A stretch of DNA of 64,000 bases from Liolophura sinensis (taxonomy: Eukaryota > Mollusca > Polyplacophora > Chitonida > Chitonidae). Location: the NCBI RefSeq assembly GCF_032854445.1, contig NC_088307.1, positions 25,866,046 through 25,930,045 on the forward strand. Direction: 5' to 3'. Both the position numbers and the translations under genes were made by a program. Shown piece after piece: positions 634 to 35,200 of this stretch; positions within the stretch are counted from its first letter, which is position 1; every line of letters starts with the position of its first letter. The notes beneath the pieces are model-generated. The model was given only the letters and a program-made list of their open reading frames with translations. It was not told the DNA's origin and did no database searches.

Positions 634-3600
634 CTGAGAAAGAAAAAGGAATCAACCGAAAACGTTCCATTGACAATGGCTTGAAACGTCCAGCGTTTGA
701 AAATCACAGTTCCGTAGTCTATCAGATTATCTAAATAAAAACAGAGCAAAGAATACACCGGAAGAGAATAGTTATGCACGTGTCTGACAAGGCGTTCTAA
801 GGTTCCAGGTGGGTAAACTTTACGGTTTGACTATTATAGGCATTGGGCGTATGAAATAAAAGACGATGGAAATGTCGAACCCATAACACATCTAGGAGAA
901 AAGTCTGGGTATGTTATGGTAAGCGAATTAACTTATTGCCCATGTTAACCTATACTGGGCAGCTTTGCCGTACTTTTTACTCATTCAGTGAGCAAGCGCG
1001 TATTTCATCCTTGCGACACTATCGTGACGGTGCTTACCAGCTGAGGATTTGAACCAGCGATTTCTGTGCTTCTAGTCCAAGATTCTAGCGCTAGACTAAA
1101 GGGAAAATCCCTACAGCCTGTAGGTAGATACTGGTTGTATATCACCCTGTTACATTATATTGCACCACATACTTTGAATGTTATAATTCCTTTCACAAGG
1201 GTACAAGACTAAATTAGCATTAATGCATACGTCTGAACCACACACATACTCACCAATGCATTAATAGCATACCTGCATTTGCGTAAAATAAACGACTAGA
1301 GTATCGAGAGTAAAATAGGACACTGGCGACAGTTTGGTAGTTAACAAATGGTGACGTGTAGCCCGGGAAATTCGGCCTCTTGTCTATTTACCTCAGTTAT
1401 AGGCTTTTATTCTAACTATTTTTGTAAATGCTTATAAGAGAAGTAAGCTATAGTCGCTTCTCCAGCACCTCGGTGTCACCAATAGGTAGAATGATCAGTG
1501 ATTTTAATCATGGACTTTATTTCACGTTACCGCTTTTGACCCACTACATGACCCACACACATACTCACGAGTCACTATCAGTGTGACTGCATACGCCCGA
1601 CCCACGCACTTACTCACCAGACACTATCAGCATGATTGCATACGTATGACCCACAAACATACTCATCAGACATTATCAGCATCATTACATACGTATACCC
1701 ACGTACATACTCACCAGACACTATCAACGTGGTTGCATACGCCTGACCCACGTACATACTCACCAGACTCTATCAGTATGATTGCATACGTATGACCCAC
1801 GTACATACTCATCAGACTCTATCAGTATAAATGCATACGTATGACCCACGTACATACTCACCAGACACCAAGATTGTATACGTCTGACATACTCACCAGA
1901 TACTATCAGCATGATTGCATACGTATGACCTAGAATAACCCAGCTCATACTCAGGAACCGGATACCATTTAAACAGGTCAGGCTTCCTGGGGCCTGTGCA
2001 GTGCTTAAAATCTTGCTTCCGTTTGTATAAACAGAAAACGCCACCAAACATTTAGCCAGGATGCCTAGAAAACAAGATAAAATGTGTTTTTCATTCTTTC
2101 ACTTTCGAAATATTTGAAATATATCTTTGATGTTGATCGGTCGTATTCATGTATACAGAGCCAAGCATAATTAGCCGGTTTCTTTCCGAGATGTTTCAGG
2201 TGAATTAAGTTCTCCTGCATGTATATGTCATCTAGGCTCCCGGGATTTCTATCTGGCTGGTTTGCTAACCATATTTATATGTGTAATACGTTGGTACTGA
2301 AGAGTTCAGTATTAGGGGTTGGGTAATTTTTAACAAGCTGTTCAAGTGAGGGCTCGGGATTTTTTCTCACTTTTCCATTGGTTTGAAGGGTGGGTGGGGG
2401 TGAGTCAGTGCATTTTTCAAGATTTTGTAATACTTTCCCCCATATTTTAACACCATAAAAGATAGCTCGTGAGATAATTTACATAACATTTAAATAATAA
2501 TATTTTTGTAACAAAAATAGTGAAAATAAACTGCTATCTTGTTCTTTTTTTGTCTTCTTCAAACGCCCAATTATTGTGTCCAAAAACCCAGTAGTAGTCC
2601 GTGCGATAAAGTTCATGACATGTAGAACAATGTTTTGATTTTGAGGAAAATATTAATAGAAATTTCGACCTGCATCGATCTATAGATTTTACTTCTTATA
2701 GAATTGAAATTCTTTCTTTTGTTATTTTCTTTTGGAGATTAGCCTCTGACTGGATCCAGTCTTAACAGTCGGAAATTCTCTGTATTTATTTATTTATTTA
2801 TTTATTTATTTAGGATTTCATACCTTACGCAAGTATATGTAACCTGAGTAAAACTCAGCCTTCACCAGGTAGCAACTGATAAGCCTGAATTAAAGTCGAA
2901 ATCGAACCTTGAAGTAAAACCTGCATTCGAGTCTGCGACTTCAATAGTTTCAGCCTGTAGCGATTAAAGTTTTAGCCAAACGGAGGGAGAAATGAATTAT
3001 AGATTGCAACCTTACTTTGATTATTCAACCTACCTAGCTTTGGGGGTCCCTCTAGCTTTTGCAGGTCCCCACCTGATGTCTTGTTTAACAGAGCTGTCTT
3101 CTCGTCTGGCAAGGAGTGGGCTGATCTCTTCTCGGTGGATCTCACGCTGGACGCGATTTGTAGGATACAGACATCATAGACGGTACCGACCAGAATGCAA
3201 AATCCGATGACCGAACATATCACACTGGAAGAAAAATAATGGACCAGTAGACAAAAACACATGGCGGGACACAAAAAATGAGAGCGTAACCAGCAGGCTG
3301 CATGCTGTAGCTTTAATCCCGTGGTGATCTGTGCCCAGTTGTTGGAAAGCGTATTAACTAATACTGGTATAAAGTCACGTTTTATATGTAAATTTTTAGC
3401 CAAATTCAGCAACCAATGCAGCTTTCCAACGTCAAAGTACAACAGCGGCAGTTTTAGTTCATATTTAATATAATGTTGCACATATTTTTTTTGGGTAAAT
3501 ACGAAACTGAAGACTTGGCTTAAACGTAAACGTGGTAGTAAGTCTTGAACAACTGGACCCAGGATGTATTGGCAAGAAAAAGCTATGTTGACTGAACATA

Positions 3601-12033: not shown

Positions 12034-12960
12034 ATGTCCTTCTGCTTGCGACTTCTGATTATGACCGGCATGGTTCCCGGCTTCTTGGCACAGTTCATTG
12101 AGCCTGGTCGTGTCGCCATATTGGGAAACATCGGTCCTAACCTTGTGAAGAGCTTGGACCTCTGTTGGAGGAGCATTCGCGAACTGTTCGACAACTGTGG
12201 AATAACGTTCCCTTCAGCTCCAGTCTTCAAAACGCCATCACCGTTGACGGTGCGGATGCCTTAGGGTCTTCTTCTAAAGAGGAAATGGATTATGTTCACA
12301 GTGGTGTGGTGTTGCAGAATGGGGTTACGGCTGAAGACGCAAATGGCAACGTCTCTGTTACCTGTGTCAATGACACAAAAAACTACATCTTGGGAATTAT
12401 GCATAAACATCAGTGGGCTCTGCGAAGTAAGCGGTTTCTGTACCTTTATGTCTATAAGTGTACGTGAAATTCTGGGAATGTTTTCTCACGTAAAGTGTGC
12501 AAGTGCATGAAAAAATGAATGTGACTGACATCAAATCAAAACGTAGAATCATAACATCTGACTGTATTTCATCAGCGGAAAAACATCTTTAAAAAAAAGT
12601 ATACAATATTTAATGGTCTGACAAGTAGTTACGGTCGTTTTTATGTTTCACTGCTTCCTCAAAACCTAGTTTCACCGAAGTTTTCACAGTTTTGTGTAGA
12701 CATCTCTTGCTTTATTGAAAAAAATCAAATTAAAATACGTTGAATGTGGATATTTTAATAACTATTTTCTTCTTTAATGAATTAATCATTCTCAGTTCTA
12801 GACTCACAAGGCAAGTTGCCCAGCGGAGTACTGTTGGGAACAGATTTTGGCTAGGGTCGTATACAGAATGTCTGAACGCTTCTGTCCTGATGACGCGGTA
12901 TTGCGTAGCGCAATACAGATACCACTCAGTATGACAGGAGGGAAATCTCACGGTCTAAAG
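12034..12960 (+). pseudogene. Frameshifted NRF-domain exons 1-2 of copy B
   Basis: Compared with copy A, exon 1 (12034-12426) reads GTGAAGAG where A has GTGAAAGAG, a one-base loss near 12148. The frame opened by the ATG at 12034 therefore stops at 12262-12264, while the conserved sequence (EEHSRTVRQLWNN to QWALR) continues in another frame. Exon 2 (12796-12960) is 29 bases shorter than in A. It loses one base at 12831-12838 (CTGTTGGG against TTGCTTGGG), lacks most of the ISHGQHRTLTT stretch, and shifts again before QIPL. Splice sites are preserved. A single homopolymer loss could be an assembly error; three or more indels point to decay. Confidence 0.75.
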
Positions 12961-15900
12961 GTAAAGTTTGTAATGATATATTATGATATAATTTCAAAAA
13001 TCCTATATAGGCAAAGAATTTATCTTTTTTAGCGATTAACACCAGGGTCATTTTCATTGTCCATCTTGTTTCTCGTTCATGTAGCCGTTTGACTGATCAC
13101 TAATTCAACCATAAAGACATCTGATATCCAAGAAATAGCTTTATTTGCACGATTTTTCTCACTTTTCGTGAAAGTTGGACAGTATCCATTGGGCAGCCGG
13201 GTAGATGTTATTTCACTTACACCACGAGGTCATTCGAACGTATATCGTCAAGGAATTTTTGTAAAACAACTGGCTTTAGCGAGCCTTCCATTTCAAGGAC
13301 AAAAGATATACTTCAATACAGAACCCAATATGTCAATCGGATTTACCGAACGTCATCATTTTTTTTATTTACGCCATACACAAGAAAGTTTCACTTATAT
13401 GATGGGATTTACATTTATGAGTAGAGGAAACATTAGAACTCGAACACTGAAAAAGTCTTGAACTTATACTGTAGGCGAAACAGCGAGAGCTGGATTCGAA
13501 CAAGCGACCTCATTGGTCAAGGGCCTAACAGTCGTAGCAACCCAGCGTTTTAACCGTTTGCTCGCCACGATATGGCTAAAATATTGCCGATGTGGCGTTA
13601 AGCCATCATCATTCATTCTTTAACCGTTTGAGGACCGGAAAATCATGTTAAAAACTGAATGTTTGTACGCTATATACTTAGCATGGTTCCACTGGTAGAC
13701 GGTTCACTGCTTACCAGAACTAGTGACAGAACTGAGACATGAATTTATAATGGAGATGCTTTTTTGCCCTTTTGTTTAATGACAGACAAGCGGCTTCCTG
13801 TCAATGGGCCTGATGATTGGCATGTGTGTGCCGCGCTCGTGCTCCCAGAATGACGTCACAGGAATTCTGGATAGAGGTAAGTCACAATGCTAGTGAAACC
13901 TTTCATCAAGGGTAAATGGAAACAATTTTAATTCTGATGTCGCCTAGTAAGTTTCTTGAAATCCTTAGAATACTTGAATTTTATTGAAAAGTTTTCAAAG
14001 TCTTGAAAGTGATTGGAGGACAGTTTATCTTTGGAAAAGCTTTATTTTATAAGTGCATGTACTTCAATTTTCAATGTTAAATATCATGTTCCATCGGGTT
14101 CAAAATGAACTGACAAATAAGGCAGCACGAGTATTGCAGTTAAACTGAGGGGTATCTGAAAGCGCCAGAAAACGGTCTTAATTTAAGGTCCCTAAAACAT
14201 TTTCGTTTATGGGTAGGAACCCTCGGTATATAATCATCCATGACGCAACTTCGTAATTTAGACAATAGTCTTCAGCAACCTACGGATGATCGGTTTCTTT
14301 CCACCATAATGCTGGCAGCTTTCGCCTAAGTCACATATCCTTGAGTACGGAGTACACCACCAATCAATCAAATAAAGAAAGAAATATGACTACTGGCTTA
14401 GACTGGATTGTTTGGACACATGTCTGTTCCCTATGGCTGAGGTATTAATGAAAGATGGTATTACAAATTCGAGATATGGTACGAGTCGGTGACAAGCTAT
14501 AAATCGGAGACCAGTTCTGCGATTTCCTTTCAGCCATTTCTCTGTTACCGCTGAACACATCAGCGATGCATGTGTCCATCAGCTGCCGTGAGGATAGGAA
14601 TTTATCTTCTGACAGACGGGCGATAGCTGCAATGTAAGTGTCAAGGGCTCACCTTTAATGCATCCACTACCGCCTTGTATTTAACCTAATATCCCGCCCA
14701 TGACTACACCTAAGTTACTTTATTTAATATTTTGCCGGTCTTCAGAATTTGCCTACACTGAAAGAAAAACAGATGTTTAACATTTAAACGCGTGATAAAC
14801 ATCTCTTTTCAACAGATAATAAACGTGCTTAATATTTAATTGTTTAATATTTAATCATATTTATCCAACAACTGATAATAAGACCGTTTTATAGTTGATG
14901 TAATACAATGAAAACTTTGAATCACTTCGTTTAAGCGATAAACTCATCAAAATTACTACATATATGATTTTTCATTCTGGTCGGTTGTTTCTCTTCTAGT
15001 GTGATATGTTCCATCATCGGATTTTTCATTTTGGTCGGTACGGTCTATGATGTCTGTATCCTGCAAATCCCGTCCAGTATAAGATTAAGCGAGAAGAGAT
15101 CAATTCAAGCCATCCAAGATGAGAAGACGACTCTCATTTATAGTGGTGCGTCAAACCCCAAAGGTGGAGATGAATTTCAGCAAGTAGCCTCACCACCAAG
15201 TACGTGCATGGAGTCACAAAACCAGTGTAAAGCATTCATGAAAAGTAGCTCTAAAATAAGAATTATGTAAATAGGAAGTGAATAAAAAAATTTGATCTCT
15301 CTGTTTTAAACATAATTTCAATTAAAGGTCGGAAATTTTCGGAAATGACGTCAACGTGAACTTACCGACTGAGCGTGATCAGTTTATTTGGACTCTTTCC
15401 GTCACAGAACATGTTTTGGCAATCTATCGCCGTTGACGTCACGACTGCCGGCTGCCTAATCTCTGAGAAAACAGCTATAGTGTTTGGAAGGCTTTAGCCG
15501 CCGCCCGCCCCCACCTCCGCATCCTCTAAAACGCGGACGCTTATTCTTGTTACTATGTATGTACACCGTATAGCACATATGAAGATGTGCATTAAAAATA
15601 TCGAACTGATTATTTAGCCAATAGGATTTTTTTGAGTGAATTTTGAATCTTTAGTTTATATGTACACTCGGAGAACTATCTTGACGAATAGGACACTTGT
15701 GATTTCACACAACAACAACAACAGAGGTCTAAAAGCAATGTTGACTTAAATCTACGGAAACCAGTGTCACCATGAAAGATCTTTGAATTAATTAAAAATA
15801 TACCACCACTGAATGAAAAATATAACTTGCACGATTTTTGTGTATTTATTTACTTCCAGGCATACTCGCTAAATGCTTGGCGTCGTTTTCTGTTTATACC

Positions 15901-18280
15901 AACGGACGCAAGATTTTGAGCACTGCGCAGGCCCCAGGAAGTTTGAACTGTTTACATGGTATTCGGTTCTTGAGTATGAGCTGGGTTATTCTGGGTCATA
16001 CATATGGAATCATGCTGACTGTGTCTGGTGAGTATGTCAGGCTTATACAATCATGCTGATAATGTCTCGTCAGTATGTATGTGGATTACACGTATACAAC
16101 CATGCTGAAGGTGTCTGGTGAGTATGTTAGGCGTATACAATCATGCTGATAGTGTCTGGCTAGTATACCTGTGGATCACACGTATACAATCATGCCGTCT
16201 GTGCCTGGTGAGCATGTCTGTGGGTGACACGTATACAATCCTGCTGATAGTGCCTGGTCAGTATGTTTGTGGGTCACACGTATGCAACTATTCTGATAGT
16301 GTCTGATGGGTATTTATGTGGGTGACACGTATGCAACCAAGCTGATGGTGTCTGATGAGTATGTATGAATGTCAAACGTATGAAATCATGTTGATAGTGT
16401 CTGGTGAGTATGTGTGTGGGTCACACGTATGCAATCATGCTGACTGTGTGTTGTGAGTGTGGAGGTGGGTCAGGCGTATGCAATCACGCTGATAGTGCCC
16501 GATGAGTATTTTTACGGGTCACGTGTATGCAACCATGATGATGGTGTCTGGCATGCGGGAGTGTCGAACGTATGCAATCATGCTGATAATGCCTGATGAG
16601 TATGTATGTGGGTGACACGAGTGCAGCGATGCTGACAGTGTCTGGTAAGTCTGTAAGTGGGTCAGACGTATGCAGTCAAACTGACAGTGTCTGGTGATTA
16701 TTTTTACGGGTCACGTGTATGCAACCATGATGATGGCGTCTGGCATGCGGGAGTGTCGAACGTATGCAATCATGCTGATAGTGCCTGATGAGTATGTATG
16801 TGGGTGACACGAGTGCAGCGATGCTGACAGTGTCTGGTAAGTCTGTATGTGGGTCAGACGTATGCAGTCAAACTGACAGTGTCTGGTAAGTCTGTATGTG
16901 GGTCAGACGTATGCAGTCAAACTGACAGTGTCTGGTGATTATTTTTACGGGTCACGTATATGCAACCATGATGATGGCGTCTGGCATGCGGGAGTGTCGA
17001 ACGTATGCAATCATGCTGATAGTGTTTGGTGAGTAAGTATGTGGGTCACAGGTATGCAATCATGCTGATAATGTCTGGTGAGTAAGTATCTGGGTCCCAA
17101 GTACGCTATCATGCTGATAATGTCAATAACCAGCCTTACAGGGACAATCAGTTAATTATCTTGTGTCTATATAACTTATTCTGAGGCATTCGTGGTCTAG
17201 TGAGTAGCATACTAGCGCGGCGCAATGACCCAGGATCCGCTCACCAGTGCGGTTGCTGTGAATTCAAGAATGCTTAACACCTGTAAATATGGCATATCCT
17301 TAACGTACCTTCCTTTCAAGGACACAATTCAGCGTAATTTTTGCTTTGTATTTATTTAGATAACATGGCCGAATATGTGCCTGTGATCTTCAAGCGCTGG
17401 ACATTTCAAGCCATCCTCAATGGGATGGTTTCCGTTGATTCCTTCTTCTTCCTCAGGTACGGATCTATTCCTCAATGCGCAATTGAGATACTCGTCTTTG
17501 AAGCGTCAGGCACACGAGAAACTGGTTAGGTCTCGACCTCGACCCTTCGAGGCTTATATATCTGCTTTACCGCACGGTTTATGAAGTTAAGCAATAAGCC
17601 AAGAAAAGATTTCGAGTGCGCATGACACAACGTCACGTGTCGCTATAGATACCACAGCACTGTAACATTGGGCAAGTCTTTTGTGATACCTAATTTTAAT
17701 TATGGCCACGAGCAGGGTTGAAAATCACAAATCATATTGTTAGTATTGAACTGTTGCCGAAGTCTGTCAATTTGTGGCATACCGTCGTGAACTCCGGTTT
17801 CATGCACAAGTGACACTAACCGCCAGAGTATACGAGTGAAGTTATACTTGGGTAGTGTTAATTCTAATTGTTATAGTCCATTTCTTTTAGAGAGTCGCCT
17901 ATATTTAGCTATCTGTAAAATCAGCCATGTTCGCTACCAAAATTGGCTTTAGCCAGTGACAAGTAACAACCCAGGCCCTACACATTGATACACTGGATGT
18001 TCATGTTATTACAAAGAAATTGTACAGCCTACACTACTCTCTCTGAGAATATCGTCAGCACGGCACAATGACTTAGGAACCACCCACTAATTTGTCGCCA
18101 AGAGTCCACTTCATGCTGGCTTCCTCTCGGGCAGTACGTCTACCAGCAAGGTCTGTCAGCCACATGCGGATGATCGTGGGTTTCCCCGGCACTCTCCCCA
18201 GTTTCATCCCACCATATATAAGTGCTAGCCGCCGTCGTATAAGGGAAATACTCTTGAGTACGGCATAAAACGCTATATAA

Positions 18281-18327
<47 letters not shown>

Positions 18328-21300
18328 AAATCTCTCAATCTCCAAAACAGTGAATTAGAGTATCCGTGGATAGTTTGAGCAATTTTAATTCTATTTTCAG
18401 CAGACGAAAGTCAAATGCTTCCCACAAAAAGCTACTCAACGTTTCAGAGTTCAAATTGAGGAATTTATTCTCCGTGTACGGTTCAGTTTGGTCTAGTAGA
18501 GTTTGAGTGCATTGGGCGTCTGCTGTATTCGGCATGGCGTTCTGTTGAGGCAGCAGTACAACCCTGTACATCAGTTGACATTGAGACCAACCTCCTGCTA
18601 CAAGAAGCAAAATAGTGTTAAAAGCGTTGTATAACCTCAGGCAAACAAACAAATCATACATAAATATGAAGTTCTTGAGTATGATTCCGGTAATAAGACC
18701 CTTAATGGCCCATACGAGCTATAGAGCTGTTCTTGCCGCAGCCGTGGTGGTCAGAGGTTCGAAACCAGCTCTTTCCGCATTTTTTTGTCAGGTATGCATA
18801 GCCAAGTTGGTGGTTTGCTGCGGACAGTCCGATTTCTTTCATTCAGAACCTAATCACCTTTGTATAAGTAAAAAAGTCTAGAGTACGACGTGAAAAAAAC
18901 AGAAAATAAATAAACTGATTCAGGTAATAAATACATAGTCTAAAAAGACAACATAATTGTTTACCTGTTGCAGTGGACTACTGGTGGCGTATATCAGCTT
19001 TAAGGAAATGAACAAGAACGAGGGTCGAATTAACTGGGCATTGTTCTATTTCCACAGATTTTGGAGGTAGGTATACAAGTGTAACGGATGAGTGAAGAAC
19101 ACTTTCAGCGTCTGTCACCTTTACTTTTGTAACTGAGTGGTAAACATGTTCATAGCAGATGTTTTTCCATCCAATTCCACAGTGCGACATGTATATAGCC
19201 TTTCTTTATTTCTTCTTTCATCACCTCAATACACTACTGGGTGTCTTTTTGTCTTTCTTTTCTTTTTCCTAGGAGCATTTCATAAAACGTCCGATTACCA
19301 AATATATGATAACAGAACTGTTACCAGCGATTCATGAATCTAGACAAAATCCACTAGGAAAACTATTAAACTAGATTCTATCTGTCTTGTTTATAATGAA
19401 CTTATCTAAATTTAGAGCTTGTCAAAATTAAATTAGTTTAAATAACACAGAATAAATCCAGATTCAGAGTTTTTTGCATCTTAAAGGATTTAAAGTGGTG
19501 CACAAAAAATAAGTACTATATTTAGCCAAATGCATCACAATTTCAGTTTCAGTAATACGAAAGATAAAGTTTTATAAAAGTAACAAAATGTTGACCTGTT
19601 GGATATCCCTCCCCTAAACTTTAGTCTCTTTCCGTTTAGACTGACCCCAGCATACATGTTAGTGATGATGGTGGATATTTGCCTTTTCCGGTATTTTGGA
19701 GACGGTCCCATTTGGCCTCAGCAGGGGATAGAAGTCAATTACTGCAGGGATACATGGTGGAAAAGTTTGTTGTACATCAACAACTTCTTTTCTTTCAACT
19801 CTGGGGTATATTCGATCTTCCTGGATGAATTTCCATATTTATTTTTTTACGTAATTTACAGTGGTAATTTTTTTTTTTGCATAGTTGTTTGGCGCCATAC
19901 TCAAGAATTTTTCACTTATATATTATGGATTAAGTTCGGTGTCAAACCCAAATAGGATCATATCATAGACATTTAAAAATCTAGTTCGCAGCCTACCTTG
20001 GCGATAAGCACTGAGAGGTTAGAGTAAAGAAACAGGACTGGTTGGCTCGGTGTCAGTGTGATGTATTTGGGTGCATGTTGTGTCATGTTTGGTGTCTTCA
20101 GTGGCGGGAGCACTTTGTCGTCATTGACTTGCTCTGACTGAAAAATTGTTAATTACGGTTTATACATGTATAAATATATATCATTGCGATTAATGATAGA
20201 CCTTCCCACACGTGACATACCGATTTGTACATACTATTACACATCAACAGCGCCGTTTCTTATCAACAAGACAACGGAAGCGAGAGTGCCTGAAGATTGA
20301 TTGCCCAAGGTCGGGATCGAACCTGAATCCACTTCCCTCTCCAGAACTTGCCAATAACACGTCGGTGATGTTTTTCATACAAACAATATGAGATGTTTTC
20401 TTGACCATAATACGACGGTATATCTGCACTATATCTTGAATACTGAAGAAGTTAAAGGATATGTTGTAATTTAAAAGAATCCTACATTGAAGAAAACAGC
20501 TCATAGTGTAATTTACCTGACCAATAATACCTGAAATATTGAATGGTTTCATTTTCATTACCGGGATAGTGTATTTCCTGGGGATGGTACTTGGCCAACG
20601 ATATGCAGTTTTACGTCCTGAGTCCACTGGTGCTGATTACTCTGCACAGGTAACCTGTAGTGTTTGTGTCAGTATAATTCTTGTATTCTCAAGATTGCGT
20701 GCTAATCAGGATGGTAGATGATATTCCCAAGATAATGTTTTCTGACCATGATGGTATAGTGATGGTTTTCGCAAGATTGTTTTCTGATCATGATGGTATA
20801 GTGATGGTTTTCGCAAGATTGTTTTTTGATCTTGATGGTATAGTGATGGTTTTCGCAAGATTGTTTTTTGATCTTGATGATATAGTGATGGTTTTCGCAA
20901 GATTGTTTTTTGATCTTGATGGTATAGTGATGGTTTTCGCAAGATTGTTTTTTGATCTTGATGGTATAGTGATTGTTTTCGCTTATACAAGATTGTTTTT
21001 TGATCTTGAAGGTATAGTGATGGTTTTCGCAAGATTGTTTTTTGATCTTGATGGTATAGTGATGGTTTTCGCAAGATTGTTTTTTGATCTTGATGGTATA
21101 GTGATGGTTTTCGCAAGATTGTTTTTTGATCTTGATGGTATAGTGATGGTTTTCGCGAGATTGTTTTTTGATCTTGATGGTATAGTGATTGTTTTCGCTT
21201 ATACAAGATTGTTTTTTGATCATGATGGTATAGTGATGGTTTTCGCAAGATTGTTTTTTTTTATCACGATAGTAGAGTGAGGATATTCCCAAGATTGTTT

Positions 21301-24300
21301 CTTGATAAGGGTGTCACAGTGATGGTATTCTTTTGATTGTGTACTGTTTTCACAAGTTGTTTTTGTATCCCTATCCAGATCAAGGGTTGCCGGCACCGCC
21401 GTCCTCCTGGCTCTCTTGACGGGTTCATTTATAACCACGGGGGTAATCAGCTCCGTCAACAAACTGCCACCCAACGGAATTGACCTCAACCAGGATATTA
21501 AGTACTCCAAAATTTGGCCATAGTGATCGTTAAACATAATTTGTACCAACAGTGTTACATAACAGAATGTTAATGACGACTCTTACTCTTGCTAATGACG
21601 CGTCATGCTGGCCTCCTCTCCGGCCGCAAGTGGGAAGGTCTGTCAGCAACCTGCGAATGGTCGTGGGTTTCCGCCGGAAAGTGAAATAATCCTGAGTACG
21701 GCGTAAAACACCAATCAAATAAATAAATGAAATGGGGACCTCCGTGGCTGAGATGGTTAGCAAGCCAGCTAGTGCGGCACAATAACCTAGAAGCCTCTCA
21801 CCCAATGCGGTCGCTGTGAGTTCAAGTCCAGCTCATGCTAGCTTACTCTCAGGTCATAAGGGGAAGGATCTTCCATCAACCTGCGGATGTTCGTGAGTTT
21901 CCCTCGGGCTCTGCCCGGTCTCCTCTCACCATAATGCTAGCCGCCGTTGTGTAAGTGAAATATTCTTGAGTAGAGCGTAAAACCCCAATCGAATATATAA
22001 AAAAATAAATAAAACTGGTGTTTTGATCTAATTTCTTATCATGTTTGTAGTCGATCAAGATCAAAATGTTTGAAACTACCTCATAGTACATGTATCTGCA
22101 GAACTACTTGTGCAATACATCGATGGCTAAAAAGATGACTTGGCTCTCACATTAAAACAAATGCTTTGAATCTCACTGTACAATAACATTTGATTGACGA
22201 TACCCACACAAATAGGACGGTCACTGAAGAATTCTAATTTGTTCGGTTTTTAAAAGCAAACCAAACCTATACCAGGATTTGTACTACGAGAAGCCGTACT
22301 GTCGTATAGGACCGTACCTAGTGGGAATGGCCGTTGGGTATACATGTATACTGCACAGGACTGGCTCCCAGATGAAGTTTACTAAGGTATGTCCACATTG
22401 AGCCGAACAAGCAGTCGTTCCCGATATCTGCAACATATGATGTGAAAGTATCTGTACCCAGAGGTATTTATTTATTTATTTTTTTACCTGATTGTTCTTT
22501 AAAACCGTACTCAATATTTTTTTCACTTGTTCGATGGCGGTCAGTTGTACGAGTGGAGGAAACCGTAGTACTTGGGGTAAACCACCGACCTTTGGTAAGT
22601 CAGTGGACAATTAACCTTCAGAACGTTTGAAGAAGGCCTACAGATTTGTGAGCCATATTGGTCTTTAGCGATCGTAAGACGTGCGCAAACGACCCCACGA
22701 ACGCCCTCCAGCGCTTATTGTTCAAAGCAATTACGACAATTAAGCTCTGCGCATTTCTTGTCCACTGAACGCAGAAACTAAACCCACACTTTAGAAAAGT
22801 GAGGTCAACACTTAGTGACGCCTTCACTAGCCTATCGTATTTATTGTCTCTGCAGGTGGCCAACTGGAGCTTGAAACATGAGGTCACAGTCTTGAATCCG
22901 ACTCCCGCTTATCCTGTCGGCCATTGACCATAATTAATTTTGCGTTAACGTTGAGTGCCACTGAGCAGTCCCTACATGTGCATGCTCCATTACTATTACC
23001 GAACTGTGAGACATGCAAATATTTCGAGGGAACATGATGAAGGAATAAATAATTAATAGTTATCTAGAGGTGTCACGGCAACAGTGTCGCGGTCAATACG
23101 CTTCCACGTGTGTGTCCTTTCAGCTAATGCCCGAAAATCAAAGTGATAGGTTTACATCCAAAATTAACAACACGAGATCATTGCTATTTCTTAATTCCGT
23201 TTTTGTGATGTCAGTATGTTAACCGCGGTGTATCTCCGCTGTACTTCAAATCGACCAGAATAAAACTTACAGCTCGACCAACGCAACTCGGCCACATGCT
23301 CTGGAGGCTCGTATCGCTAGGCCACAGGTACTACATTTAGAAAGCAACATGCATGTAAACAGTCATTTTATAGGTGTATGTGTATGGCTGCTTAAGATGC
23401 AGTAAACATTGTATTATGTTGTTGTTTTTTTGGCGGGGGTGGTTTTTTGGGTTGTTTTCCCCTATTTAATACCAAAACGGCTTTGTTTTCTCTTTTTTTC
23501 ATGTTTCATTTTTCCTTCAAGAAAGGTTTGGTGTTTGGCTGGGTGTTGGCTTTTGCCTGTAACTTGGCCGTGCTTTACGGTCTGTATGGACATTTCAACA
23601 CAGAACCGCTGACATCAGACGTCAGCGCCCTGTACAATACAGTGTCCAGAACGGCGTGGGCTTTGGGACTTGGGTGGCTGGTCATCGCCTGCTCTTCAGG
23701 AAACGGGGGTAAATTAACACTCTTACTACAGTCAACTAAAAGATCATACTATTTGCTCCAAATAGATATTAACAGCCAATCGTAGTTTGGGGTAAAAACA
23801 TATAACGGGCATAGTACATGTATGTATGTATGCTTGGAGTTTAACGTCGTACTTAACAATTTCATATAATGGCGAAGAGCCAGTAAATGCATGTGCATAT
23901 ACCACGCCAAAGACACCAGACAAGACACTACAAGACACCCCACCCAGTCACATTATACAGACACCGGGCGAACCAGTCCTGTTTCTCTAACCTCTCAGTG
24001 CTGAACGCCAAGCGAAGCAGCAACAAGTCCCAATTTTGAAGTCTTTGGTATGATCGGACCCAGGTTTGATCCCGGAGTCTCCTCAGTTCGAGGCGGATCC
24101 TCTTACCATTAGGACACCGAATCGGTCAAATGAACATTCCTATAGTACTGTTTAAGACAAACTGAACTTCTTTGGAACTCGAACTATTTCCGAACTAACG
24201 TAATGCCATGTTTAAATGTTCACAAAAGGCATAGTAATATCCATCCTAAGATTTCATACTATGATGGCCTTTGACGAACAAAATTATTATTATTTTTTTT

Positions 24301-27300
24301 TTGGAGAAAAAATGTCCGTTTGATATTTTATATTTTCCGGAGGAGTTACGTTTATGTTGTCTATACCAGGTATCATCAACAGCCTTCTCTCCTGGGCCCC
24401 CTTCCAGCCCCTCGGTCGGCTCACCTACTGTGCCTATCTCATTCACCCGCTCGTTATTCTGTACTTTGCTACGGGAAGAGAAGTCGTACCTCATGCATCT
24501 GACCTCAACATGGTAAGATACTGTTATTTTCAGAATAAAAATGTATGAAAGTGGCCATGCACCTCCTGAGATCAAGAGTAGACAAATAATGATGTTCCTG
24601 TCTATATCCAAGAGCTTCTCGAATTCAGAACCAGGCGAATGATACCATGCGCCAAAAATATGACATAACAGAATACAACTATTTACTATTCAGTTTTACT
24701 GAAATCAATGTTGTGCTGGTGGTCTTGATTTTATAAAGGTGAAACAGGACCATATAGATGATAAATTCCATGTTATCGATATTAAGTTAAACACATTATC
24801 GCACTACAAGCACGGTATTCATTGTCGTCAAATCGGCAAAAAAATCGATTTCTGCACCTGAACAGCCAATGAGATTCCCTGTCAACACTCCCATGAGCTT
24901 CTCTATCATTTCTCTTAATGGGCTTTTCTGCCCGCACCCACATTAGGCTCCTCTATCATTTCTTTTAATGGGCTTCTCTTCCATCACTCCCAATGAGTTC
25001 TCTATCATTTCTCTCAATGGGCTTGTCAACCAACACTTCAAGTAGGCTTGTCAACTAACACTTCCAGTGGGCTTGCCTTTCATTTATATTAATGGGCCTC
25101 TCTATCTTTTCTCTTTACCAACACTCCCAATGGGCTTGTCAACCAACACTTCCAGTGGGCTTGTCAACCAACACTTCCAGTGGGCTTTCCTTTCATTTAT
25201 AGTAATGGGCCTCTCTATCTTTTCTCTCAATGGGCTTGTCTACCAACACTCCCAAATGGGCTTGTCTACCTCCACTCTCAATGGGTTTTTCTGTCATTTC
25301 TCTTAATGGGCTTTTCTATCAACACTCCCTGTGAGCTTCTCTATCATTTCCCTGAATGGGTTTGTCTAGCAACACTCCCAATTGGCTTGTCTACCAATAC
25401 TCCGTATGGGCTTCTGTACCAGCATTCGCAATGGGCTTTTCTTCCATTTCACTTAATGGACTTCCGAACTAATAAAAACAATGGGCTTCTCTATCATATC
25501 TCTGAATGGGCTCCTCTAACATGTTTCTCAATGAGCTTCTCTACCAACACTACCATGAGCTTCTCTATCGTTTTCTTACTGAACTTCTCTACCAGCACCT
25601 TCAATGGGCTTCTCTACCAACACTCGCAATGGGCTTTTCTTTCATTTCTCTTAATGGACTTCCGTACCAATAATAACAATGGTCTTTTCTATCAATTTTC
25701 TTAATGGGCTTCTCTACCAACACTCCCAATGGCTTTCTCTATCATTTGTCTTAATGGTCCTCTCTGCCAACACTAATAACTGGCTCCTCTATATAATAAT
25801 GAGCTCCTGTGTCATGTCTCTCAGTGGGCTTCTCTACCAACACTGCCATGATCTCTATCGTTTCTCTCATTGAGCTTCTCTACCAACACGCCCATGGCCT
25901 TCTCTATCATTTATCTTAATGAGTTCCTCCATCAACACTGCCATGAGTTTCTGTATGGTTTCTCTTAATGAACTTCTCTACTCCATTCCTAATTCGCTTC
26001 TCTATCATTTATCTTAATGGGCATGTTTACCAACCCTGCCAGTTGGCTTCTCTGTCATTTATCTTAATTTTCGATGACTACCAACACTGCCAATTTCCTA
26101 CTCTATCATTTATCTTAATAGGCTTCTCTACCAGAACTTCCAACTGGCTTCTCTGTCATTTCTTTTAATGAGATTCTCTACCGAGATTCTCTCAATGGGC
26201 TTGTCTACGTACACTCTCAATGGGCTTTTCTTTCATGTCTCTGAATTTCTCTATCAACACTCTCAATGAGCTTCTGTATCATTTCTCCCAATGAACTTCT
26301 GTATCATTTCTCCCAGTGGGGTTGTCTACCAACACTCCCAATGGTCTTGTGTACCAACACTCCCAATGGGCTTGCCTACCAACACTCACAATGGGCTTGT
26401 CTACCAACACTCCCAATGAGCTTCTGTATCATTTCTCCCAATGAACTTCTGTATCATTTCTCCCAGTGGGGTTGTCTACCAACACTCCCAATGGTCTTGT
26501 GTACCAACACTCCCAATGGGCTTGCCTACCAACACTCCCAATGGGCTTGTCTACCAACACTCCCAATGAGCTTCTGTATCATTTCTCCCAATGAACTTCT
26601 GTATCATTTCTCCCAGTGGGGTTGTCTACCAACACTCCCAATGGTCTTGTGTACCAACACTCCCAATGGGCTTGCCTACCAACACGCCCAATAGGCTTGC
26701 CTACCAACACTCCCAATGGGCTTGTCTACCAACACTCCCAATGGGCTTGCCTACCAACACACCCAATGGGCTTGTCTACCAACTCTCCCAATGGGCTTGT
26801 CTACGTACACTCCCAATGGACTTGCCTACCAACACTCCCAATGGGCTTGCGTACCAACACTCCCAATGAGCTTGTCTACCAACACTCCCAATGGGCTTGC
26901 CTACCGACACTCCCAATGGGGTTGTCTATCAACACTCCCAATGGGCTTGCCTACCAACACTCTCAATGGGCTTGCATACCAACACTCCCAATGGGCTTGC
27001 CTACCAACACTCCCAATGGGCTTGTCTACCAACACACCCAATGGGCTTGTCTATCAACACTCCCAATGGGCTTGTCTACCAACACTCCCAATGGGGTTGC
27101 CTACCAACACTCCCAATGGGCTTGTCTACCAACACTCCCAAAGGGCTTGTCTAGCAACACTCTCAATGGGCTTGCCTACCAACACTCCCAATGGGCTTGC
27201 CTACCAACACACCCAATGGGCTTGTCTACCAACACTCCCAATGGGCTTTTCTGTCAACACTCCCTGTGAACTTCTCTATCATATCTCTGAATGGGTTTGT

Positions 27301-28091
27301 CTACTAACACTCCCAATGGGCTTTTCTGTCATTTTTCTTTATGGGCTTTTCTATCAACACTTTCTGTGAGCTTCTCTATCATTTCCCTGAATGGGTTTGT
27401 CTAGCAACACTCCCAACTGGCTCGTCTACCAATACATCCAATGGGCTTCTGTACCAGCATTCGCAATGGGCTTTTATCCATTTCTCTTAATGGACTTCCG
27501 AACTAATAAAAACAATGGGCTTCTCTATCATATCTCTGAATGGTAATGAAAATGTATCCACTGAAATGTAGATATGGATTTTATTCCAGTATCTGGATTT
27601 TGCTCTTCATGCAGCAAAACAGAGTTTTTTAAGAAATGGGTGTTTCAAAATGAAAAAGCAATGTATGCGTTTATGAGCTTGACAGTTCTTGCATCTTAAC
27701 CGTGTAGAAAATGTTGGCAAGATTCCTTGCGATACTTCGATCTGCCACATAGCCTATAGTGTCACAAAACTGTGAATTAACGGGGTTTCGGGTGTCTTCA
27801 GCGTTCCAGTGATGCAGCACTCGAAATATGCGGGTTTCGAATTGACCTGATAACTTCGCTATATGACAGATGTAATATTGAAAGCGACATAAATCGTGAT
27901 GTAAACGAACAGTCAAGCCAGAGTTAACGATGTCGTAATTTTCGGTTTTTGTTTCGCAGATCTACTATTTCCTTGGCCACATCGTCATGTCGTACGGACT
28001 GGCCTTTGTTGTCTCCCTTGCGTTTGAAGCTCCGATGATCGGTCTGGAGAGAGTGCTGTTGAAAAGAGACAGGAAACGGACAGAGAACTGA
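12034..28091 (+). CDS. NRF-6-like acyltransferase 3 protein, copy B (15 exons; exons 1-2 frameshifted)
   Basis: Exons: 12034-12426, 12796-12960, 13786-13876, 14534-14633, 15000-15199, 15860-16027, 17360-17456, 18974-19066, 19640-19805, 20570-20649, 21379-21501, 22257-22386, 23522-23708, 24370-24512, 27960-28091 (TGA). Exons 3-15 are in phase and give 569 residues. They include GMCVPRSCSQND, a membrane segment in exon 5, GIRFLSMSWVILGHTYG, INWALFYFHRFWR, LTPAYMLVMMVDICLFRYFG, GWYLANDMQFYVLSPLVLI, YCRIGPYLVGMAVGY and LGRLTYCAYLIHPLVILYF, the usual order of the NRF-6 acyltransferase 3 domain. Exons 1-2 are broken (separate entry), so the gene is either decaying, expressed from an internal start, or miscalled at a few bases. 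The exon 12 acceptor (TTTTTAAAAG, 22256) is weak; it was chosen because it keeps phase. Exons 4-7 align with copy A in phase and nearly in length. Confidence 0.8.
14263..14385 (+). repeat. Family A SINE fragment (3' half)
   Basis: Body and tail (CACCATAATGCTGGCAGC to CACCAATCAATCAAATAAA) in intron 3 of copy B. Confidence 0.7.
16028..17127 (+). repeat. 49-bp minisatellite spanning the exon 6 splice donor of NRF-6 copy B
   Basis: About 22 units starting exactly at the exon 6 donor (TGTCTG followed by GTGAGTATGT at 16028). The unit repeats the exon end (CACGTATGCAATCATGCTGA) plus the donor. Intact donor-like GTGAGT or GTAAGT occurs at about 16119, 16404, 16645, 16837, 16886, 17029 and 17078. 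A higher-order period of about four units is visible: the TTTTTACGGGTCACGT block followed by GGCATGCGGGAGTGTCGAAC recurs near 16510, 16695 and 16945. It is the same repeat, in the same intron, as in copy A. Confidence 0.93.
17181..17275 (+). repeat. Family A SINE head fragment
   Basis: ATTCGTGGTCTAGTGAGTAG to GCTGTGAATTCAAGAA matches the tRNA-like head and B-box region of the family A SINE. The body is absent. Confidence 0.65.
18060..18328 (+). repeat. Family A SINE with long AAAT tail
   Basis: Central body (TCATGCTGGCTTCCTCTCGG, GGATGATCGTGGGTTTCCCC, CCGCCGTCGTATAAG) and tail are present, ending in about 12 AAAT units. The head is degraded. It lies in intron 7 of copy B. Confidence 0.82.
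19985..20130 (+). repeat. Family B'-like SINE fragment
   Basis: AGCACTGAGAGGTTAGAG through GACTGGTTGGCTCGGTGTCA matches, in opposite orientation, the body of the elements at 23828-24122 and 49795-50110 and, in the same orientation, 59400-59632. Confidence 0.55.
20690..21290 (+). repeat. 42-bp minisatellite in intron 10 of copy B
   Basis: About 14 units with core AAGATTGTTTTTTGATCTTG, ATGGTATAGTGATGGT, TTTCGC. The array starts about 40 bases after the exon 10 donor at 20649. The unit is 14 codons long and lacks stops in several frames on both strands, giving false open frames of 180-199 codons. Two units carry an insertion TTATAC. Confidence 0.94.
21590..21728 (+). repeat. Family A SINE, internally deleted
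   Basis: GTCATGCTGGCCTCCTCTCC to ATGGTCGTGGGTTTCCGCC, then a jump to AAGTGAAATAATCCTGAGTA and the tail. It is immediately followed by a second, nearly full copy. Confidence 0.78.
21734..22013 (+). repeat. Family A SINE, near full length
   Basis: Head GGGGACCTCCGTGGCTGAGA, B-box-like GAGTTCAAGTCCAGC, body and AAAATAAATAAAA tail are all present. It lies in intron 11 of copy B. Confidence 0.87.
22465..22610 (-). repeat. Family C SINE fragment
   Basis: It shares the tail side with family A but has a distinct body containing ACCACCGACCTTTGGTAAGT. The same body appears at 49510-49630, with a related reverse fragment at 63280-63390. Confidence 0.55.
23828..24122 (-). repeat. Family B' SINE
   Basis: On the plus strand it begins GCTTGGAGTTTAACGTCGTA and ends with a tRNA-like stretch (CCCAGGTTTGATCCCGGAGT, CTTACCATTAGGACACCGA), so it reads head to tail on the minus strand. 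It lies in intron 13 of copy B. Confidence 0.7.
24905..27541 (+). repeat. 25-bp minisatellite, 2.6 kb, in the last intron of copy B
   Basis: Roughly 100 units of AATGGGCTTGTCTACC plus AACACTCCC. The ends are diverged (units with ATCATTTCTCTT); the middle (26330-27260) is very homogeneous. A 150-bp higher-order block (six units) is repeated three times nearly identically from 26266, 26416 and 26566. Sequence at about 25310-25508 recurs at about 27345-27541, so the homogeneous core is flanked by direct copies. Because 25 is not a multiple of three and the unit lacks stops, all three plus frames stay open; these are not genes. Confidence 0.95.
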
Positions 28092-31722: not shown

Positions 31723-32184
31723 GACACTACAGACTGAGCATTGAACGTATCAGCCATAATCAGAGGAGAGGTAATCTCCTCATCCCAATCTATAAACTCT
31801 AAAATGAGTACATAAGTCACTTTCACATTTCTGATGCCCACCATGTTTTTAGCAGAAATGTCACAAGATCTTGCATTACACTGGAGGTGGGTGCTAATTT
31901 TTGCTCAACAGCCTATACTTAACCTAGCATTGGCATGCTTACCACATTAAATATCTGTTCATTCTCCATTGGAAATGATGTTCCCATTCGCACCTTACAG
32001 TAAAAGCAATGGAGAAACTGAAAATGCCAAGTAGAAAGTGTTATTTTGAAATGTTGCCATATTGGCCGTGGAAAGCAGCTCAAACTTCAAAGGCCACTGT
32101 CTGAGACTGGGTGCTAATTTGACCTTGGGTGCTCCGTTGTGGCGAGTGTGGTGATGCATATTCTAAAATGCGAATGTCGCTTAT

Positions 32185-32186
32185 TG

Positions 32187-32217
<31 letters not shown>

Positions 32218-32219
32218 TT
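32185..32219. repeat. TA then GT microsatellite before a possible splice acceptor
   Basis: About nine TA units followed by GTGTGTGTGTTTTAG. The final TTTTAG looks like a 3' splice site 13 bases before the DUSP12 ATG, suggesting an upstream 5' UTR exon. Confidence 0.6.
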
Positions 32220-32233
32220 TAGCGAGGAGAAAC

Positions 32234-35200
32234 ATGAGTGGGGAGGTCACAGGTCTGGACATGAACGAGGTGTTAGAGAAGCTGTATCTGGGAAGTGAGA
32301 TGGCAGTGGATGCAGAAGAGCTGCGTAAGCTAGGGGTGACGCACATTCTCACAGTATGCCACAGGCCTCTACCTACGGAACAACATGCAGGCTTCAAGTA
32401 CTTGTATGTGTCGGCCAATGATGTCGAGGACGCTGACCTCTTGACTAGACTGTCTGACTGTTTCAGGTTCATCGAGGAGGGGCGTCAGCAGGGCGGGGTG
32501 CTTGTGCACTGGTAAGGGAATTTTCAAGCTGTGCCAAGTATTCATCGTAATTCCTTTAGCCAGGGATGTTGTCACGGTCAAGTGTTCAAAACCTTTGTCT
32601 TTCAAACACATTGAAAATACATGCATACATACATATGTGCAAAGATTCCTTCCTTTTGTTTATCAGGCATGGGAATTTTCCAGTAGTTGGCTATTTCAGA
32701 CTTTTTTGTTTAAATTAAAAAAAACAAAACAGCTGATTTTGTCGGAACAGGTGATTTCTTATGTAATTTGGAGGTAAGGTGAGGTATTTTCAGACACTTG
32801 TTGAATTTTCTGACTATTTTGTTGCCATCAGTTCCCATGCGTGCTTTGTGAAATGTGCAAAAAGTACCCTGCAATTTGATTTGAACATACAGCGAAACGA
32901 TCGTATGATGGTTTCATTTTCAGTTCATCTGTTTGTTTTAGTGTTGCTGGACTGTCCAGAAGTGCGACTGTGGTGATTGCATATGTCATGATGAAGACAG
33001 AACACAGAAGCCTGGATGAGGCCCTGGACTTTGTGTCCTCAAAGCGGCACTCAATCAAGTATGTGGACATGTGTAGCTATTCCCTTCAGCTCAGTTGGTA
33101 GAGTTCTAGATTTCACATGTGGAGATCTGGGTTCAAATCTCAGTGTTCCACAAGGCTTAAGGCTTTTGAATGTGTGTGTTTCCTGAGAGAGGGGAGGCTT
33201 GAAGTTGGAGGGGTCAAGTGTAAAAGGAACAGCTTGTTGCACACTAGCAGAAATTACTCTGTAGCATAGTTGGTAGAGTGCTTAATTTTGGATGTGAAGA
33301 TCCAATTACAAATCAAGGTTTGTCATGGGGAGATAATCCTTTAGCTATTGTACTGGTGCTGTGACCGGACAGAGTCCAAGAAGTGGGATTCTCTGGGTCT
33401 GTGAATATGTCTTGGTATAGAGGATGATTTAAGCAAGAGTAGTGTAAAGAGTGTAGCTTTGCAGTGTCGAAACCAAAAGTACATGTTGCTAGTTGAATTC
33501 CCCTGGAGCTTAGTTTATGTACATATATACTGTATATGTAGTGCTGCATTACTGAAGAGGAAGTCTGAGCTCAAATGCCCGAAGGATTTCATCAGAAGGA
33601 CTGAAGTTGATAAAATGCTGGCTGACAAAATCCTGGCATGTAGCGCACAAATCACAATATATATATGAATACTTGATAGTGGCCATGCTGAGCTAAAATA
33701 CATGTGCGTACGGATGGACCCGAGCTCTTTAGTGCCTGGAGGTAATATTGCATACATGTAGCCTCAGCAGATCTCTGTGTTCACCTTGCAGTGTAATTTT
33801 GAATCCAGATATCAGAGGCTTCTTGAATTCTGTCATCTCATTGGCTTATGAACCACAGATTTACATGTAATTTGAATATACCATAAATGACCGTGTAAAT
33901 TTCGTCCGTGACTAACTTGCCCATTTTTCTGTTGATTTGATTTTAGAAATGTGTTTTGAGATATTCTACTGGAATTGTTTCAGCACCAAAAACTAATATT
34001 TTGTGACACTTATTTTCCTCTAAAAATGTACTTTTGTGGTCAAAATTTGAGGTCATTTAGGGTAAGCTCGCAATATTCCAACAACGTGAGAGATACAGCT
34101 CTTTTGTTCAGAGGGTTTTCTGTCACTGGAGTCCTGTTAGTTCTCAGAAAAAGACAGAAAAAAATGTTAGTATAGGGATAATAACTAGGGATGTTTCGAT
34201 AAAGGACTATAGACAATGGTCTTTCATTTCCTGTGTAACTGATCTGACAGAGTTTTCTTTTGTAAAGTGCTCAGTCATTGGTCATATTCAAAAAGAAAAA
34301 CTGACATCATAAAACATTGTTATGTTAAAAAGAATGGGCGTATGCATGAAGTGTGTAAATTTTACATGTAGTATGTTTGTATTGGTATGTAGTGATTCTG
34401 TATTTTACTTAAAATTCTGTCCATGACTACTGTGTTTTCTCTAAAATTTGAGGCACTCACTAACAGATACCCTGAAATAAGTGGGAAAATCACAACCATC
34501 TCCCTGGAAGCATTCACAAAACCTGTGATATCGGCATACATGAGTGAACCCTGGCCTATGGCAAACTCTTTCCAAAGAGCTTACATTGGTTTACAGTTAC
34601 AAGGCAACTCACTGTACAAGGCAACATGTCATTTCTCAGCACACACACTGTTTCAAAGAGTATATCGTTTATTTTGATTGATTGTTATTGATCTTAGAAT
34701 GGTCTTCTGAGATTTTTCTTGATGATATGATACTATATAGGGCCAAAAGTAACAATTCATCACCTTTGTTTTCCTCTTCAAATTCCCATTGTCAGGTTAA
34801 TTTTTCAGGCAAATCCTGTAACTACAACTGAACCATTTGCATTATACATTTTCTTCCGTCAGACCAAACTTTGGATTTCTAGAGCAACTGCACTTGTTTG
34901 AGGCCATGGGAAGTGAAGTCAACCCTCAACACCCTCACTATGTCAACTACAGAATTCAGATGCTCGCGCTCAAGGTCCAAAGGGGAGGTAACCATGACTG
35001 CATATCAAAGCATGTACTGTATTGCACCTTTTGCCTGTATGTAAAAATGCATATTCAGAAGCACCTAAGAGACTTAAAATAATGCTTTTGATGCCAACAC
35101 ATAAGTTTTTTCTGATAGGGAACTAATCAAACTTCTCCCAAAATTCCCAAGTGGCCCTACAACGGGGATGATTCATTTAGAATCAAGCAAAATGTGTCAC

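Follow-up and report, generated by a model that had tools for sequence, protein, structure and literature searches.

The window, a 64,000-nt stretch of the chiton Liolophura sinensis genome (NC_088307.1, positions 25,866,046 to 25,930,045 of the forward strand), contains two related genes arranged as a divergent, head-to-head pair. Copy A occupies the minus strand and continues beyond the start of the window; copy B occupies the plus strand. The joined exons of copy A, assembled from the window and 10 kb beyond it with boundaries set by eye, encode 617 amino acids and match the Pfam domains Acyl_transf_3 (E = 2e-24) and NRF (E = 5e-21). Judged by these two matches, the host gene is an NRF-domain acyltransferase and a member of the nose-resistant-to-fluoxetine family; Pfam searches with fragments of the gene gave no match for it. 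Copies A and B are 77–90% identical at the nucleotide level across seven exon pieces in an ungapped comparison, from which exon 2 is excluded because a deletion puts it out of register. No stop or frameshift was seen in the exons of copy A found by tblastx. Relative to copy A, copy B carries a single-nucleotide deletion in exon 1 and a second in exon 2, and its later exons, as found, are open; these two frameshifts and the open exons that follow point to copy B as a possible pseudogene of recent date or a possible shortened gene. The coordinates of the exons and arrays considered here are given in Table 1.

Table 1. Exons, donors and donor arrays of copies A and B, in window coordinates.
Feature	Position	Strand	Remarks
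Copy A exon 7, 97 nt	634–730	-	
Copy A isolated remnant unit	1216–1255	-	deeper in intron 6
Copy A donor minisatellite, homologous to that of copy B	1548–1896	-	7 units follow the authentic donor (1896)
Copy A exon 6, 168 nt	1897–2064	-	
Copy B exon 1	12034–12426	+	from the first ATG used here, a putative start; 1-nt deletion near 12147
Copy B exon 2	12796–12892	+	end approximate; 1-nt deletion relative to copy A
Copy B exon 6, 168 nt	15860–16027	+	source of the unit, which takes its exon portion from the final 34 nt
Copy B authentic exon-6 donor, GTGAGT	16028–16033	+	
Copy B donor minisatellite	16028–17124	+	22 downstream units, then a broken end
Recent higher-order duplications within the copy B array	16508–17037	+	offsets 192 and 241
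Copy B exon 7, 97 nt	17360–17456	+	normal splice partner of exon 6

Outside the array in intron 6, blastn found no similarity between the introns of the two copies besides simple repeats and dispersed repeats, the latter having what we take to be a molluscan look. Searches with tblastx added a match in copy B at approximately 14524–14644, in the interval separating exons 4 and 5, and some similarity upstream of exon 1, so that the locus outside the array is not wholly without resemblance between A and B; the stretch between exons 4 and 5 is either a missed exon or a conserved piece of intron. Several other tandem arrays lie in the window. In an intron of copy B, a 42-bp unit is repeated about 13 times (20736–21306), with frames open on both strands, and directly past copy B there is a 2.4-kb array of 25/50-bp units (25112–27543) with open frames of approximately 150–220 codons. 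A third array, at 38102–38875, comprises 16 copies of a 48-bp unit, a period divisible by three, and is open over its full length on both strands. A separate open frame at 32123–32515 gives a weak match to dual-specificity phosphatases, under the Pfam cut-off.

Intron 6 of copy B, 1,332 nt in length, opens with a minisatellite in which the end of exon 6 is reiterated together with its splice donor. Tandem Repeats Finder reported a 49-bp period and 22.5 copies at 16044–17124. In each unit, 34 nt share homology with the exon-6 end and are followed by 15 nt of donor and intron sequence, which begins GTGAGTATGT. A first-pass annotation had described a 49-bp unit containing the last 34 bases of the exon and repeated about 22 times from the donor onward; alignment places exon sequence within the unit as described, and we counted 22 downstream units. 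Spacing is not uniform, with 17 of the 22 steps being of 49 nt, three of 45 nt, and two of 41 nt. The dinucleotide GT is kept in 13 of the 22 downstream units and lost in nine, five with A replacing the first G and four with GC. Either GTGAGT or GTAAGT is kept in eight units, seven of them with G at position -1, in line with the earlier estimate of at least seven.

The ladder of donor-like sites that had been proposed for this intron is present. By a donor frequency table, eight downstream donors score above the authentic donor or within about 1.7 of it; strong donor 9-mers, defined by a score of at least 7 in such a table, number 10 per 1,088 nt of array versus 4 per 4,114 nt of other copy B sequence, most of which is intron. 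The authentic 9-mer itself recurs at three downstream donors (16118, 16404, and 17078), and at 16118 and 16404, as well as at three units in copy A, the U1-pairing energy equals that of the authentic donor. Use of either of the last two donors (17029 and 17078) would leave an intron of approximately 282–331 nt.

These repeats are not a product of chance. When the 40 nt spanning the exon end and donor were compared with downstream sequence, the best copy matched at 35 of 40 positions in copy B and 39 of 40 in copy A, versus at most 24 of 40 in shuffled sequences (100 shuffles each). At all seven other paralog loci, the best downstream copy matched at 19–21 of 40 positions, within the range of each locus's own shuffles, and no donor array followed the homologous exon. 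We also searched the genome assembly (609,464,459 bases in 632 contigs) for a 22-nt core of the unit; the 15 matches with at most two mismatches all fell within copies A and B. Dispersed, intron-generating introner elements were rejected as an origin on this basis, given that core matches are confined to the two genes.

The copy B array has grown recently. The segment at approximately 16508–16700 is repeated at an offset of 192 nt and that at approximately 16652–16796 at an offset of 241 nt, with 98–100% identity per 49-nt step and 92% at the edges. With respect to length variation, the data represent one haplotype, in which near-identical blocks are present in copy B and the core unit occurs in the two genes alone. 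Tandem repeats can be assembled wrongly and blocks this similar could be miscounted; under such a reading, units would have been inflated or collapsed artificially. We regard such an artefact as scarcely credible, since the units differ from their consensus by 12–18% on average and the array is found in two separate genes; moreover, HiFi reads average 8.3 kb, longer than the array, if the assembly is the one described in the available text of its publication (PMC11068029).

Intron 6 of copy A contains a shorter array of the same kind, in which GTGAGT is present in five of the seven downstream units and ATGAGT in the other two. The consensus units of the two arrays agree at 47 of 49 positions. 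In both genes the first unit is missing the identical first eight columns, as is the third unit of copy B, and the first unit of copy A has an additional six-column gap. Identity between units of the two genes (0.76) is not below that within copy B (0.74, recent copies left out) and stands beside a value of 0.81 within copy A. The homologous array in copy A, with its near-identical consensus and equal 8-nt gap in the first unit, indicates that the array is probably older than the duplication that produced the two genes. Furthermore, units of copy B are closer to the exon of copy A (mean identity 0.81) than to the present exon of copy B (0.76), which indicates that the copy B array was not built from today's copy B exon. 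If the two genes exchanged array sequence after they had duplicated, the arrays could look commonly descended without being so; we consider this the weaker alternative. Independent amplification of one exon end in each gene following duplication is highly improbable: slippage hot spots can recur and junction arrays do exist in two other family members (see below), but separate events would have to account for the shared first-unit gap, the matching consensus, the A–B identity at least equal to that within B, and the affinity of B units with the exon of the other gene.

The divergence of the units provides a second view of their age. Units differ from their consensus by 0.116 in copy A and 0.180 in copy B, a sum of approximately 0.30. 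At 99 fourfold sites the genes themselves differ by 0.26 before and 0.32 after correction, with a dS of 0.38–0.42; as a numerical fit, the unit divergence corresponds to near-neutral drift from the duplication onward.

We asked how the donors fared relative to the rest of the unit. In copy B the donor hexamer was not better kept than other columns, with mismatches at 28 of 132 positions versus 161 of 918 elsewhere (p = 0.33), or 16 of 96 versus 109 of 664 when recent copies were removed (p = 1.0). In copy A, it was somewhat better kept (2/42 versus 36/286; ninth of 49 windows), a difference that was not significant and that comes from seven units only (p = 0.20). When the two genes were pooled, the hexamer ranked 24th among 49 windows for conservation. 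No clear codon-position signal was detected in the exon-derived columns, and a coding role for the units was rejected given this result and the stop codons described next.

Extension of exon 6 into the array would be unproductive. From all 22 downstream positions in copy B, the reading frame meets one and the same stop codon, at nucleotides 198–200 of exon 6. It had been suggested that downstream donors would add about 49n bases and mostly shift the frame; the frame is indeed kept by only seven of the 22 positions, whereas the 45- and 41-nt steps mean that the added lengths are not exact multiples of 49, and every position ends in the stop. In copy A, a stop is reached from all five live downstream donors, and the sole position with an open frame (1812) lacks GT. 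Because every usable donor brings a premature stop, use of any of them would give no new protein. Scanning the copy B array with a simple rule revealed no acceptor-like site, compared with approximately three per kb in other copy B sequence, and thus the array could only lengthen exon 6. The end of exon 6 is homologous in paralogs L003–L005, L007, and L009, and lies slightly later in L006 and L008, as aligned by eye. Intron gain by tandem duplication was rejected on these two grounds, i.e., the array of copy B has no acceptor-like site and most paralogs have a homologous end of exon 6.

Arrays at splice junctions also occur elsewhere in the family. In a third member, L009, 2.6 copies of a 160-bp unit extend across the acceptor of exon 6 (L009:1149–1562), each unit carrying the polypyrimidine tract, the AG, and the opening segment of exon 6. 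In L007, four upstream units of approximately 32 bp with acceptor-like ends include a stretch that matches the beginning of exon 5 at 9–13 of 18 positions (L007:959–1084), and an inverted array of a nearly identical unit lies approximately 85 bp upstream of the direct array (L007:775–874). Arrays at the exon-6 boundary are thus present at three of nine loci (A, B, and L009), with that of L007 at exon 5. Separately, L003 has five copies of a 58-bp unit directly before the exon corresponding to exon 7 (L003:562–861); this array is intronic and does not cross the junction.

For comparison, we inspected 41 control loci (30 of 99 P450 matches and all 11 sugar-transporter matches) and accepted a junction array at none by our own reading, with the caveats that match ends are inexact as exon ends, that some loci overlap or share a gene, and that several P450 matches each form one long frame. 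A script flagged one of the 30 P450 loci (L027, 2.1 copies of 18 bp), which was dropped on inspection because the repeat sits beyond a donor-like site; five others were examined and not accepted. We do not claim that junction arrays are enriched in the host family, since A and B prompted the search and without them one of seven exon-6 loci remains, the cases being few and chosen post hoc. A genome-wide excess of donor ladders was likewise rejected: three closely spaced GGTRAGT motifs occurred 3113 + 3364 times (6477) versus 2947 + 3165 times (6112) for the reversed pattern, a difference of 6% in a genome where minisatellites are common.

Taken together, these observations bear on what the ladder does. 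The first-pass annotation had raised the possibility that the array tunes splicing. As a regulatory device, competing donors would divert some of the transcripts into degraded, stop-containing mRNAs, and array length would set the output of the gene. Several features are compatible with this: downstream donors are strong, each usable one brings a stop, recent expansion would yield variation in length, and donors in copy A are kept slightly, if non-significantly, better than other columns; there is also published precedent for alternative donor choice controlling mRNA abundance, in the accessible text of one report (PMC4222953). Set against them are the lack of preferential conservation of the donor columns in copy B, the loss of GT from nine of its 22 units, and the possibility that copy B, with frameshifts in its first two exons, makes no full protein to regulate. 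Exon definition moreover favors the upstream of equal donors, as far as the available text of a minigene study goes (PMC9225289). A regulatory ladder is consequently unlikely. The proposed tuning role fares poorly for related reasons, namely the middling rank of the donor hexamer, the stops that close off protein-altering use, and the advantage of an upstream donor of equal strength.

A second functional possibility is that the extra sites bind U1 and remain uncut, helping to define exon 6 or suppressing premature polyadenylation. The equality of U1-pairing energy at two units of copy B and three of copy A would suit such a buffer, as would the persistence of the array in introns where blastn sees no other A–B similarity beyond dispersed and simple repeats. 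Slippage explains this persistence equally well, however; the donor columns of copy B show no excess conservation, and all seven other paralog loci do without a donor array. We consider a U1 buffer very improbable.

The explanation we regard as likely is that the array is a tolerated splice-junction minisatellite of the 'mirage' type, grown by slippage, inherited by both genes, and decaying near-neutrally while the first donor is used. On this account, the end of exon 6 (34 nt), its donor, and the first intron bases would have been tandemly duplicated as a 49-bp unit in the common ancestor of A and B. The array would then have expanded through replication slippage or unequal exchange and passed to both genes, its units decaying at a roughly neutral rate, as the numerical fit shows. 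The first, exon-adjacent donor would most probably be the one used in splicing, because recognition is expected to operate across the exon and, among several donors of equal strength, the upstream one to win. Any leak to a downstream donor would lead to a premature stop and a waste transcript, which nonsense-mediated decay would be predicted to remove.

The case for the first donor draws on published human minigenes. In the portions of that study available to us, when exon definition applied and two identical donors stood 52 nt from each other, splicing went exclusively to the upstream donor; flanking introns longer than 200–250 nt are given as the point of the switch to exon definition (PMC9225289). 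The same text gives two points that count against first-donor use: approximately 60% of human events prefer the downstream donor when strengths are unmatched (60% prefer the upstream donor when they are matched), and an older rule favors the intron-proximal donor (PMC9225289). Two features of copy B also weigh against it, i.e., the three downstream donors with the authentic 9-mer and the short intron that the last two would leave. We favor predominant use of the first donor with rare leakage to stop-carrying transcripts; leakage may occur at the last donor of copy B (17078), since approximately 282 nt of intron would remain. The option that the array is tolerated because the first donor wins, which had been listed alongside tuning and decay, fits best with the conservation, the stops, and the minigenes.

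What is new here is the phylum, the age of the array, and the two further acceptor-side junction arrays in the host family. Mirage-type arrays are hereby extended from lancelets to a mollusc, and a minimum age for such an array can be dated by a gene duplication. The locus also constitutes a natural experiment in donor choice when one intron holds about eight rivals of comparable strength. Since the donors decay near-neutrally, it can be argued that animals can bear such ladders harmlessly over the long term. A broader generalization, in which splice-junction minisatellites of chitons are recurrent and long-lived as in lancelets and some, the present array with its origin before the A/B duplication among them, control output as ladders that bind U1 or induce decay, appears distinctly unlikely. 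The first-pass annotation cited no known example in the host gene family; the kind of array has been described in lancelet and human genes. Among the matches listed in the open-licence literature, there was no report of a mirage-type array in molluscs or in the host gene family, which is weak evidence.

One relative in kind is human. Turri et al. reportedly described, in 1995, a human minisatellite that offers multiple donors for splicing, said to reside in the gene 6-16/IFI6 and to have a unit of approximately 12 bp. Both that repeat and the chiton array offer a series of donors in tandem; by its title, the human repeat supplies donors to transcripts, whereas the downstream donors of the chiton array are putative. 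The DDX3Y minisatellite was rejected as a parallel, as it is a promoter-side repeat in what its source makes available. Internal tandem repeats in human segmental duplicates, with units of approximately 30 bp on average, alter gene structure and in some cases sit at exon-intron boundaries, as does the chiton minisatellite; according to the accessible text, most are primate expansions and some created new introns, unlike the chiton array, where neither a new acceptor nor a new intron is evident (PMC2812944).

The closest parallels are the 'mirages' of lancelets, known from Adh3, the globin genes BflGb6 and BflGb9, PGBD5, and troponin C. As described in the available parts of these reports, mirages are minisatellite-like tandem duplications across an exon-intron boundary, whether at the donor or at the acceptor; many of their units, though not all, carry splice signals, and splicing appears normal (PMC3087553; PMC3902484). 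In amphioxus, RT-PCR suggested that they leave splicing undisturbed, as far as the accessible text shows (PMC3087553). Like them, the chiton unit spans the boundary, with 34 nt of exon and 15 nt of intron, and carries the splice signal in many but not all copies (GT in 13 of 22 units in copy B and five of seven in copy A). Unlike them, it is found in a mollusc and apparently predates a gene duplication. An amphioxus origin of the sequence was rejected; GFP-family matches numbered zero, in itself weak evidence. It is also the longer array when compared with BflGb6, for which six and three units are given in two haplotypes in the text available, copy B having 22 downstream units. In its anatomy, the chiton array is a mirage.
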